DNA from: Candidatus Bathyarchaeota archaeon
Lineage (GTDB): Archaea > Thermoproteota > Bathyarchaeia > TCS64
DNA length: 64,000 nt
Direction: 5' to 3'
Assembly (NCBI GenBank): GCA_026014875.1
Contig: JAOZHO010000027.1
Span: 88,106-152,105 of the forward strand
This document shows, piece after piece, positions 5,325-8,668 of this stretch (within the stretch, counting starts at the first letter, position 1; every line of letters begins with the position of its first letter). The notes below the pieces were generated by a model that was not told where the DNA came from, ran no database searches, and was given only the letters and a program-made list of their open reading frames with translations. Made by a program: the position numbers and the translations under genes.

Positions 5325-6344
5325 GTGGTGAAAGTCGCGGTCAGCGGAATACCCCGGGGCTACCAGATGCCCCGGGAGGACGGCAACTGGCTCCAAGAGA
5401 AGCACAGGCGACAGATCATGGCGGTCTCCCCTGATGTGGAGTTGGTCGAGACGCCTCAGGGGGAGGTGCACAGGGTCGATGGGATGGTTGAGGGTGTCGA
5501 GGTCCTCCTCGCCGAGGGGGGTAACACGATCCACTACGGAGAGGAGCTGGACCGGGAGGACTATCTCAAGTTCTTCACCCCGAGCCTGAGGTGGGTCCAG
5601 CTCTGCAGCACGGGGTTCGGCGACAACATCACCCCGGAGATCATCAGCGGGGAAGTTGTGCTCACCAACGCCCCCGGGATCCATACAATACCAATCGCGG
5701 AGAGCGTAATTGCTGCGATGCTCGACCACGCGAAGAGGCTGAAGCAGAGACGGATAGACCAGGGCGATCACGCGTGGGGAAACGTCAAGCTCAGTGAGCT
5801 CTACGGGAGCACGGTCCTGCTGCTGGGGCTCGGGAACATCGGGAGGCGGGTCGCCATGCTGTGCAAGTCGTTCGAGATGAGGGTCATCGGCACCAAGAGG
5901 CGCGTCGAGGAGGTGGAGAACGTGGACCTCGTTTTCCCCCCTGACGAATTGAAGCGATACCTCCGGGAGGCCGACTATGTCGTCATCGCTGCGCCCCTCA
6001 CCCCCCTCACGGAGAACATGATAGGCCCTGAGGAGTTCGAGGCGATGAAGGAGTCAGCCTACCTGATCAACGTGGGGAGGGGGAGGATCGTGGATGAGGC
6101 CGCGATGGTCGAGGCACTTGGAGCGGGGAGCATCGGGGGAGCGTATCTCGACTGCCACGTGGAGGAGCCCCTGCCCTCGGATCACCCGCTCTGGGGTATG
6201 GAGAATGTCCTCGTGATTCCTCACGACAGCCACTCCTCGCCCTTCATAGGGGACCGGATTGTGGACATCTTCTGCGAGAACCTCCGCCGATACATAAAGG
6301 GAGACCCGCTCCTCCACGTCTGCGACCCCGCCCGGGGCTACTGA
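5325..6344 (+). CDS. D-isomer-specific 2-hydroxyacid dehydrogenase, NAD-dependent
   Basis: This 339-residue protein has the two-domain fold of D-2-hydroxyacid dehydrogenases, which interconvert 2-keto and D-2-hydroxy acids with NAD(P)H. The Rossmann glycine motif GLGNIGRRVA is near residue 170, followed by VNVGRGRIVDEAAMVEAL, the EEPLPSDHPLW block, and IPHDSHSS, which supplies the catalytic His. An N-terminal catalytic-domain piece includes VVLTNAPGIHTIPIAESV. The start is GTG 9 bases after a good Shine-Dalgarno (GGAGGT), with a second GTG as the next codon. The true substrate (glycerate, phosphoglycerate, glyoxylate or another) cannot be read from these motifs. No ACT domain is present, so SerA is less likely. 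Confidence 0.88.
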   Translation: MVKVAVSGIPRGYQMPREDGNWLQEKHRRQIMAVSPDVELVETPQGEVHRVDGMVEGVEVLLAEGGNTIHYGEELDREDYLKFFTPSLRWVQLCSTGFGDNITPEIISGEVVLTNAPGIHTIPIAESVIAAMLDHAKRLKQRRIDQGDHAWGNVKLSELYGSTVLLLGLGNIGRRVAMLCKSFEMRVIGTKRRVEEVENVDLVFPPDELKRYLREADYVVIAAPLTPLTENMIGPEEFEAMKESAYLINVGRGRIVDEAAMVEALGAGSIGGAYLDCHVEEPLPSDHPLWGMENVLVIPHDSHSSPFIGDRIVDIFCENLRRYIKGDPLLHVCDPARGY

Positions 6345-6671: not shown

Positions 6672-7283
6672 CTAGCTCTTCTCCAGCAACACCCGGTAAT
6701 GCTCCTGGACCTCGTTAATCCTGCCACAGGTGAACCTCCCCTCGGGGCAATATCCCAGCTGGCAGCAGTAGGGGCCGGTCTCCTTGAAGAGGCCGGGGGC
6801 CACGGCTACGACCTTGAGGAGCATCTCGTCCGCCAGGTCCTTTATCTCCCACTGGGCCCGTTCACAGCATCGTAGCCCGAAAAAGTGGTTGAGAGATCCG
6901 CCGTCCATTGTCATGAGCAGACTGGTCGGGGCGGCATTTGGCAGGACGAACCGGGCGTCCTCCTTGGGGACGCCGGATTCCACCAGTTTCCTGTACGCTT
7001 CACCGGAGGCCTCCACGAGACCCTTGAATGTCTCAGATCCGTCTCCAATGGATCCGGGGGTGACGACCCTTTCGCTGAGCCTCTTCCCCGTGATGTATCT
7101 CTGGCTCTGCTGGGAGTAGGATGCCACCCGGTGCCGGACGAGTTGGTGGCTGCAGGCCCGGCTTATCCCCTCGATGGCGAATGTGAAAGCCGTGTGGGGA
7201 AGGAGGTCGTTATCCGTGAGGCCATCATTGGAGATGTTCTTTAACCCTTCAACGGGTGTGTGGCTCAGGAGCTCGACTCTCAT
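6672..7283 (-). CDS. thyX: FAD-dependent thymidylate synthase ThyX, catalytic subunit lacking the N-terminal segment
   Basis: The ThyX signature RHRxxSxxxxSxR is intact as RHRVASYSQQSQRY, and the C-terminal half has the family's RCCERAQWEIKDLADEML block plus a cysteine-rich end (GPYCCQLGYCPEGRFTCGR). ThyX makes dTMP from dUMP with FAD and methylene-tetrahydrofolate or an archaeal pterin. I start it at the ATG overlapping the upstream stop (ATGA) because MRVELLSHTP is the usual family opening; the longer ORF N-terminus is a frame shadow. Relative to the family, about 40-50 residues are missing between this opening and FTFAIEGISRACSHQ, including the helix pair and the H-G-S-x-LEH motif. Those pieces are present in the gene immediately upstream. 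Confidence 0.85.
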   Translation of the reverse strand: MRVELLSHTPVEGLKNISNDGLTDNDLLPHTAFTFAIEGISRACSHQLVRHRVASYSQQSQRYITGKRLSERVVTPGSIGDGSETFKGLVEASGEAYRKLVESGVPKEDARFVLPNAAPTSLLMTMDGGSLNHFFGLRCCERAQWEIKDLADEMLLKVVAVAPGLFKETGPYCCQLGYCPEGRFTCGRINEVQEHYRVLLEKS

Positions 7284-7693
7284 TCCTTTCTCCCCCTCAA
7301 TGCCTTCAGGGAGGGGGCGAGTTCCCTCACCGAGTCGACGAGGGCGTCCCCGAATCCGTCTCTCTTTTTCTCCGAGTATTCCAGGATGGTCCGGAGATTG
7401 GCGCTCATGAGCCATTTGCTTTCGCCGATGGGGGTGAAGGTGAAGAACCTGTTCTCGAGAATTATCCTGAGCACTTCGCCTTCGGTGGCCTCAAGGGTCC
7501 ATGTGAACCTGTTATGCTCCAGGATGCTCCCGTGCTGCAGCTCCAGTCTCCCCACGGCGGTCCTGGCCTTTTGGGGGTTATTCTTCAGTCGCTCGTAGAG
7601 GGTGGAGGGTTGGGCTCCGCTGGTCGTGGTGAGCATCGCAGTGGCGATCAGAGTCTCGACGTCTGGGGTGTGGCAGATGAGCTCCAGTTTCAC
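7280..7693 (-). CDS. ThyX paralogue without the RHR signature, translationally coupled to thyX
   Basis: This 137-residue protein opens MKLELICHTPDVETL, like ThyX, and has the N-terminal helices and the LQHGSILEHNRFTWTLEA block. The sequence then passes to FFTFTPIGESKWLMSANLRTILEYSE, resembling the later ThyX helix, without any RHRxxS catalytic motif. It therefore retains the part missing from the downstream thyX and lacks the part present there. Its TGA overlaps the downstream ATG (ATGA), so the two products should be made in equal amounts. I infer a heteromeric ThyX in which this subunit supplies the flavin/folate-contacting N-terminal region. An alternative is a regulatory or decaying paralogue. 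Confidence 0.75.
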   Translation of the reverse strand: MKLELICHTPDVETLIATAMLTTTSGAQPSTLYERLKNNPQKARTAVGRLELQHGSILEHNRFTWTLEATEGEVLRIILENRFFTFTPIGESKWLMSANLRTILEYSEKKRDGFGDALVDSVRELAPSLKALRGRKE

Positions 7694-7719: not shown

Positions 7720-7989
7720 TTAGACCGGGGGCATCTCGGATTTCTTGGGCTTGGCCTTGAGTTCCGGGGGGATGTCGACGGCCCTCACGACGTTTATTGT
7801 GTTGATGACATAGATGGGTGAGCCGTCGGGCTCGTAGTTCTTCAGCCTCTTGACCCCTCGGAGGACGAGCTTCACCTTGAGGGTGGTGCCGTCGCTGAGG
7901 GTGTAGGTGTTCCAGTTCTCCTCGACCTCCTTGAAGTCGAGGTCGACGCTCCCTTCGAGGGCCCCCATGGGCAGCTTACGCATCGACAT
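7720..7989 (-). CDS. small archaeal beta-rich protein of unknown function
   Basis: An 89-residue protein located 26 bp upstream of the ThyX-like pair on the same strand. Its core follows the pattern Y-x-L-x-DG-x2-LK-x-K-x-VL...V, then DGSPIYVINTINVVRAVDIPPEL and a lysine-rich tail. The same pattern appears twice in the unrelated-looking 176-residue protein at 13.1-13.7 kb, so this is a recurring domain in the genome. It looks like a small all-beta fold. Position suggests co-expression with thyX, but no function is known to me. Confidence 0.65.
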   Translation of the reverse strand: MSMRKLPMGALEGSVDLDFKEVEENWNTYTLSDGTTLKVKLVLRGVKRLKNYEPDGSPIYVINTINVVRAVDIPPELKAKPKKSEMPPV

Positions 7990-8077: not shown

Positions 8078-8668
8078 ATGTCAGCTTGGGACGATTGGTT
8101 CAAGAGGCTCAAGGAGCGGAAGGGATTCTTCTTCCCCGAGATCGACAGGATAATCGACGAGATGGAGAAGGCGATGGCGGATTCATTCAGGGACATGGAG
8201 GACCAGATGCCCCGGAACATGGTCAGGGTGAGGCGCCTACCGGACGGCTCCGTCCGCCGGGAGTACGGCCCCTTCGTCTACGGCTACTCAGTGAAGATCG
8301 GGCCGGACGGCAAGCCCATCGTCAGGGAGTTCGGGAACATGAAGCCCGGCTTAGGGGGTGAGGAGGGGCCACCTCTCAGCCTCCAGGATAGGAGGGAGCC
8401 CCTGGTGGATGTCATCGACGAGGAGGATCAGATCAGGGTGCTCGCCGAGCTTCCGGGCGTGGACAAGGCGGATATCCACCTCTACGTCGACGAGCACACC
8501 CTCACCATCAATGTGGAGACCCCGGAGCGGAGATACCACAAGGAGCTGTCGCTTCCCGACGAGATCGATGGCTCCTCCTCAAAGTCCACCTACAGGAACG
8601 GCGTCCTAGAGACGGTGCTCAAGAAGAGGAAGCATAGGGACACGGGCACCCGAATCAAAATCGAGTGA
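8078..8668 (+). CDS. Hsp20/alpha-crystallin family small heat-shock protein
   Basis: The C-terminal 90 residues are an alpha-crystallin domain: IRVLAELPGVDKADIHLYVDEHTLTINVE in pieces, then KELSLPDEID and a final NGVLETVLKKRK strand. The chaperone holds unfolding proteins in soluble oligomers. The N-terminal half (residues 1-100) is longer than usual and includes a helical WFKRLKERKGFFFPEIDRIIDEM segment and a YGPFVYGYSVKIGPDGKP block seen in archaeal members. The terminal IxI motif reads IKIE. An A/T-rich promoter (CTTTTGATAAAAAATG) directly precedes the start, so the transcript is probably leaderless or nearly so. Confidence 0.9.
   Translation: MSAWDDWFKRLKERKGFFFPEIDRIIDEMEKAMADSFRDMEDQMPRNMVRVRRLPDGSVRREYGPFVYGYSVKIGPDGKPIVREFGNMKPGLGGEEGPPLSLQDRREPLVDVIDEEDQIRVLAELPGVDKADIHLYVDEHTLTINVETPERRYHKELSLPDEIDGSSSKSTYRNGVLETVLKKRKHRDTGTRIKIE

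Follow-up and report, generated by a model that had tools for sequence, protein, structure and literature searches.

Two adjacent bathyarchaeotal genes divide the active-site residues of thymidylate synthase ThyX and probably encode a heteromeric enzyme

Two ThyX-like genes at one locus

Two adjacent genes on the reverse strand of the window, i.e. the whole stretch of 64,000 nucleotides that was analysed, resemble ThyX, an enzyme that makes dTMP (the letter T of DNA) and is normally composed of four copies of one protein. The upstream gene (7280-7693, minus strand) has a GTG start and encodes a reduced ThyX paralog of 137 residues, denoted subunit B. The downstream gene (6672-7283, minus strand) has an ATG start and encodes a ThyX protein of 203 residues with the RHRxxS motif, denoted subunit A. 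The ORFs are in different reading frames. They share an ATGA stop/start overlap (7280-7283, minus strand), as reported in the first-pass annotation. Neighbours of the pair are a D-2-hydroxyacid dehydrogenase-like protein (5325-6344, plus strand) and an Hsp20-family protein (8078-8668, plus strand), and an 89-residue ORF just upstream of B (7720-7989, minus strand) gave no Pfam match.

Subunit A matched the Pfam Thy1 profile (PF02511) over profile positions 54-190 with E=6.6e-49 (166.7 bits), and B matched positions 1-83 with E=1e-5 (25.9 bits, cut-off 24.8). Against NCBIfam thyX (TIGR02170, cut-off 87.9 bits) A scored 141.9 and B 13 bits; in these archaea, annotation by this cut-off picks up only one gene of the pair. 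With a full-length ThyX profile B reached 39.6 bits, the best of 2000 shuffled versions of B reaching 5.9, and judged by its sequence B is a real ThyX homolog despite the NCBIfam score. No Thy1 match besides the pair was found in the genome to which the window belongs (2.5 Mb, 96% complete).

The predicted models of A (pLDDT 86, pTM 0.80) and B (pLDDT 91.5, pTM 0.82) both contain all four core strands and conform to the ThyX fold, a four-stranded antiparallel sheet with helices. The 50 best matches listed by Foldseek against the PDB were ThyX chains only, for A (top E 3e-11) as well as for B (top E 9e-5, TMq 0.57-0.70). The ThyX-like fold of B is not fully independent evidence, because the alignment used by the predictor for B included ThyX fragments. 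Two structure-prediction alignments were left out, one (A1) since it misplaced the tail of B against the RHR loop, and one with C-terminal fragments (A3) since it was also misaligned.

The locus had been annotated as a split thymidylate synthase, with a downstream ORF in which RHRxxS is present but the N-terminal helices and HGSxLEH are missing, and an upstream ORF with HGSILEH but no RHR. The motifs are as described, but the term split is wrong as to origin. A homologous beta-1 strand opens both proteins (KLELICHTP and RVELLSHTP), and this shared start, together with the four core strands in each model, means that they are not halves of one gene. Subunit A lacks helices H1-H3 between beta-1 and beta-2 (including S30, H53 and T55), and B lacks a helical insert of about 60 residues between beta-3 and beta-4. 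From the alignments and predicted models, A and B are therefore taken to be ThyX paralogs that arose by duplication with reciprocal loss and not by fission.

Active-site residues and the subunit boundary of ThyX

The distribution of active-site residues was tabulated for 38 aligned A/B pairs in T. maritima numbering. The T. maritima ThyX sequence used for numbering is one that we take to be correct, and over residues 56-205 it matches the PDB alignment (chain numbering offset 12). Subunit A of the window carries RHR (R78-H79-R80; A residues 50-52; 7128-7136, minus strand), Arg111 (R147, dUMP phosphate; 6951-6953, minus strand) and Arg138 (R174, dUMP activation; 6870-6872, minus strand). Q75, R78, H79, R80, S83, S88, R90, R147, R174, Q180 and E182 are present in A in 38 of 38 pairs, and E144 is invariant too. 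The combination of RHRxxS with the downstream dUMP-binding residues S88/R90, R147 and R174 is consequently complete in A of all 38 pairs and absent from B, in which RHR, the active-site loop, R147 and R174 are not conserved.

Subunit B, on the other hand, carries HGSILEH (7514-7534, minus strand; B residues 54-60, corresponding to H53 to H59). H53, E58 and R165 are found in B in all 38 pairs and N163 in 37; H59 is invariant, and position 55 is S, D or N. In A, H53 and E58 are lost in every pair. The FAD-binding N163/R165 motif, missed by the first-pass annotation, is intact in B of the window (SANLRT, with NLR at 7391-7399, minus strand; B residues 99-101, N99 = N163 and R101 = R165) and degraded in A (TMDGGS), where both residues are gone. 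The assignment of the B tail (residues 93-135, aligned to T. maritima 157-207 with N99/R101 on N163/R165) is a putative one, supported by a multiple alignment, by the model and, weakly, by a second alignment with a profile (E=0.019). The FAD/folate-face residues H53, T/S55, E58 and N163/R165 are thus met by the pair and not by A alone. Neither protein alone has the complete residue set, so that, judged by residues alone, the pair does not correspond to a homotetramer from one gene; this division over two genes recurs in 45 class genomes, and we therefore file the pair as a variant of ThyX rather than an ordinary member. The partition varies in some families, since B of the pairs in families f80 and f71 has lost H53 (keeping E58 and NxR) and A of family f19 keeps R165.

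Flavin-dependent thymidylate synthases (FDTS) have been described as homotetramers of four identical subunits (PMC6514825). The FAD of subunit A in the M. tuberculosis enzyme is held by three subunits, through RHR of A, Ser71 and Arg190 of B, and Gln103 (equivalent to E86) of C; the stacked dUMP is likewise carried by C (PMC6514825). The equation of Ser71/Arg190 with T55/R165 is our own, derived from RHR = 95-97 and the nine-residue spacing to the dUMP arginine. H53 sits on "monomer-3" (PMC11940539). In PBCV-1 ThyX, one monomer contributes Q75 and Arg182 and a second one S88/Q89 (PMC3498832), and PolB shows the same division (PMC5003785). The partition between A and B thus follows the known subunit boundary, because H53, T55 and R165 come from another subunit than RHR in solved tetramers (PMC6514825, PMC11940539), which bears out the earlier suggestion that two partners are structurally reasonable. 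From these published origins we infer that our A has kept the parts played in the M. tuberculosis enzyme by subunits A and C, and our B the part of its subunit B.

A possible assembly can be formulated on this basis. Each active site of homotetrameric ThyX is built from pieces of three subunits, with Q75, RHR and R174 from X, H53, T55 and R165 from Y, and the 86-91 loop plus R147 from Z. A pair of A subunits would take the places of X and Z, providing the dUMP pocket together with the phosphate/flavin contacts made by RHR. Each B would take that of Y, providing the contacts to the flavin phosphate as well as the histidine that stacks on folate and the folate loop. An A2B2 tetramer would then have two complete and two dead active sites, which we infer from the D2 symmetry of ThyX. 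The pair resembles ThyX as exemplified by T. maritima TM0449 and the M. tuberculosis enzyme in its fold, in its RHR, dUMP-site and FAD-site residues (for A and B jointly), and in a predicted tetramer with active sites where three subunits meet. In contrast to known ThyX, with one gene, a homotetramer and four identical sites, it has the residues divided over two genes and two sites predicted per tetramer.

Conservation of the pair and competing explanations

The adjacent pair was found in 45 of 201 genomes drawn from the class (25 in f1, the family of the window, 3 in f2, 1 in f9 and 16 in f19), among them close relatives of the window (Candidatus Bathyarchaeota MAGs L003, L004 and L006). The f1 genomes without it are two fragmented ones (G098, 260 contigs, 58% complete; G104, 370 contigs, 85% complete). 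In a second class of the same phylum the pair occurs in five genomes, i.e. G479, a single contig that is 100% complete, and the f80 genomes G526, G538, G542 and G544. The co-occurrence that the first-pass annotation proposed to examine is hence observed in both classes. In each of the 47 pairs whose spacing was examined, the gene for B directly precedes that for A (a start codon at the 4-base stop/start overlap being possible in about 30), and every A with intact flanks has B immediately upstream. Distances among A and among B proteins are correlated in a mirror-tree comparison (r=0.97 for 36 pairs, 0.76 within f1 and f2), the maximum in 2000 permutations being about 0.3. Both genes are under purifying selection, with dN/dS of 0.05-0.33 in 13 pairwise comparisons.

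In two f81 genomes (G529 and G532) B and A are fused in one ORF of 419 and 397 residues, respectively, with a B-like first half (H53, E58, R165) and an A-like second half (RHR, R147, R174). These fusions have the same partition as the pair in the window and are strong evidence that both parts work together, but they differ in being one chain and in their A half, which groups with L208, an undivided ThyX from the same class.

Some further variants were observed. One genome carries, beside its f19-type pair, a second, divergent A/B pair (L156, G103:C33) that is closest to the f71/f80 pairs of the other class, and its sequence suggests acquisition by transfer; B of this pair, too, lacks H53 but has E58 and NxR. 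In a genome with an intact pair, a further A-like ThyX match is interrupted by two in-frame stop codons, one TGA and one TAA (L180, G092:C526). In four f19 genomes (L148:1625-3595, L158, L159 and L160, in G082, G091, G106 and G030) the active-site loop of A is interrupted by an insert of about 350 residues (SFSQQ|C...HN/GNS|QRY) with a LAGLIDADG_3 domain in L148, very likely an intein to judge from these features. An undivided ThyX in another genome (L184:826-2118, G396) has an intein-like insert before RHR (SRVAC...GNSHQLVRHR) with a weak Intein_splicing match.

The overlap of the two genes in different frames might be explained by a single full-length gene broken by a frameshift or an assembly error. 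However, the two N-termini are duplicated and homologous, each protein having its own beta-1, the two cover overlapping parts of the ThyX fold, and the arrangement is repeated in more than 45 independent assemblies including the single-contig genomes G059, G077 and G479, which leaves practically no room for such an artefact. Alternatively, A could be a self-sufficient divergent ThyX, accompanied by a decaying duplicate or an incidental neighbour, given that most catalytic residues are in A, that A alone exceeds the NCBIfam cut-off, and that B is short and divergent. This is very improbable in our judgement, since A has lost H53 and E58 in all 38 pairs, since pairing is kept across families and fusions exist, and since B is intact in every pair; its dN/dS and the invariance of H53, E58 and R165 led us to reject the pseudogene. 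The case named at the outset as a refutation, a complete ThyX beside a pseudogene, was accordingly not encountered, with no undivided ThyX in relatives carrying the pair among the matches listed.

It is also conceivable, albeit unlikely, that the pair forms a heteromer serving a different purpose, be it as a nucleotide or one-carbon methylase of another kind or as a regulator that binds dUMP/FAD, and that dTMP is made by ThyA where present. A ThyA-type homolog was indeed found in 9 of 27 f1 genomes and not in the other 18; the window's own genome is one of the nine, with a 241-residue protein on contig 8 (L179:987-1709, minus strand) that has PPC and SWDAYAGLPANIAG motifs, so that the pair need not be the only source of dTMP there. 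Functional drift is moreover known in the ThyX family, PolB accepting UMP in addition to dUMP as a substrate for methylation (PMC5003785). Against this, all dUMP-contact residues of A are invariant, and ThyA (PF00303) is absent in 21 of 21 pair genomes of f2, f9, f19 and f71, G479 among them; 8 of the 21 are near-complete. No undivided ThyX was seen beside the pair among the Thy1 matches listed for pair genomes, and the pair is therefore the sole recognisable candidate in many carriers.

The comparative evidence thus supports two partners of one enzyme, and we think it quite probable that A and B are the subunits of a single, obligately heteromeric ThyX, most simply A2B2. The physical complex, its stoichiometry, the mutual dependence of the subunits and the conversion of dUMP to dTMP, which in ThyX depends on FAD, NADPH and CH2-folate, are inferred only.

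Evolutionary origin and significance

In trees of A, the f19 proteins are placed beside an undivided ThyX (L169) and the f81 A half beside another (L208). A single clade of all A proteins was rejected (p=0.002); for a clade of the f1, f2, f9 and f19 A proteins, one data set gave rejection (p=0.002) and a second a borderline result (p=0.052). Trees of B place all B proteins together (98/99). This could mean either that B had one origin and its A partners changed, or that the reduction was repeated and the B proteins are joined by a shared loss of constraint, and we leave this open. A viral or mobile origin was rejected, as no relative of B was found in viral contigs or phages. It is possible, though we hold it only tentatively, that ThyX became heteromeric on more than one occasion, every time through a duplication followed by an identical reciprocal loss that respected the FAD/dUMP subunit boundary. 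The two-gene and the fused forms, with only half of the sites left, would be the outcome.

Single-chain tandem Thy1-Thy1 proteins of about 430-560 residues (L163, L164, L166, L186-L193, L226 and L227) occur in other archaea of the phylum (f14, f27, f29, f35, f39, f50, f58, f61, f63 and f79). Like the A/B pair they imply the joint action of two diverged ThyX-like units with unequally divided residues. Unlike the pair they form one chain, in which the first half, in our reading, keeps the active-site loop and the second the RHR region and R174, and they probably have a separate history.

No description of a heteromeric, heterotetrameric, paralogous or Bathyarchaeotal ThyX was found in the open-licence literature, in agreement with the first-pass remark that a characterised heteromeric ThyX is not known; this absence is weak evidence, because only open-licence papers were searchable.

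ThyX is under study as a target for antimicrobials. A heteromer in which the site residues are cleanly divided over two chains would be a natural dissection of the subunit roles and would allow single-site mutants without symmetry, and the prediction of an obligate two-protein enzyme is directly testable. It would also be a clear example of complementary degeneration after duplication and, if its repeated origin is true, of natural convergent subfunctionalisation of an active site common to several subunits.
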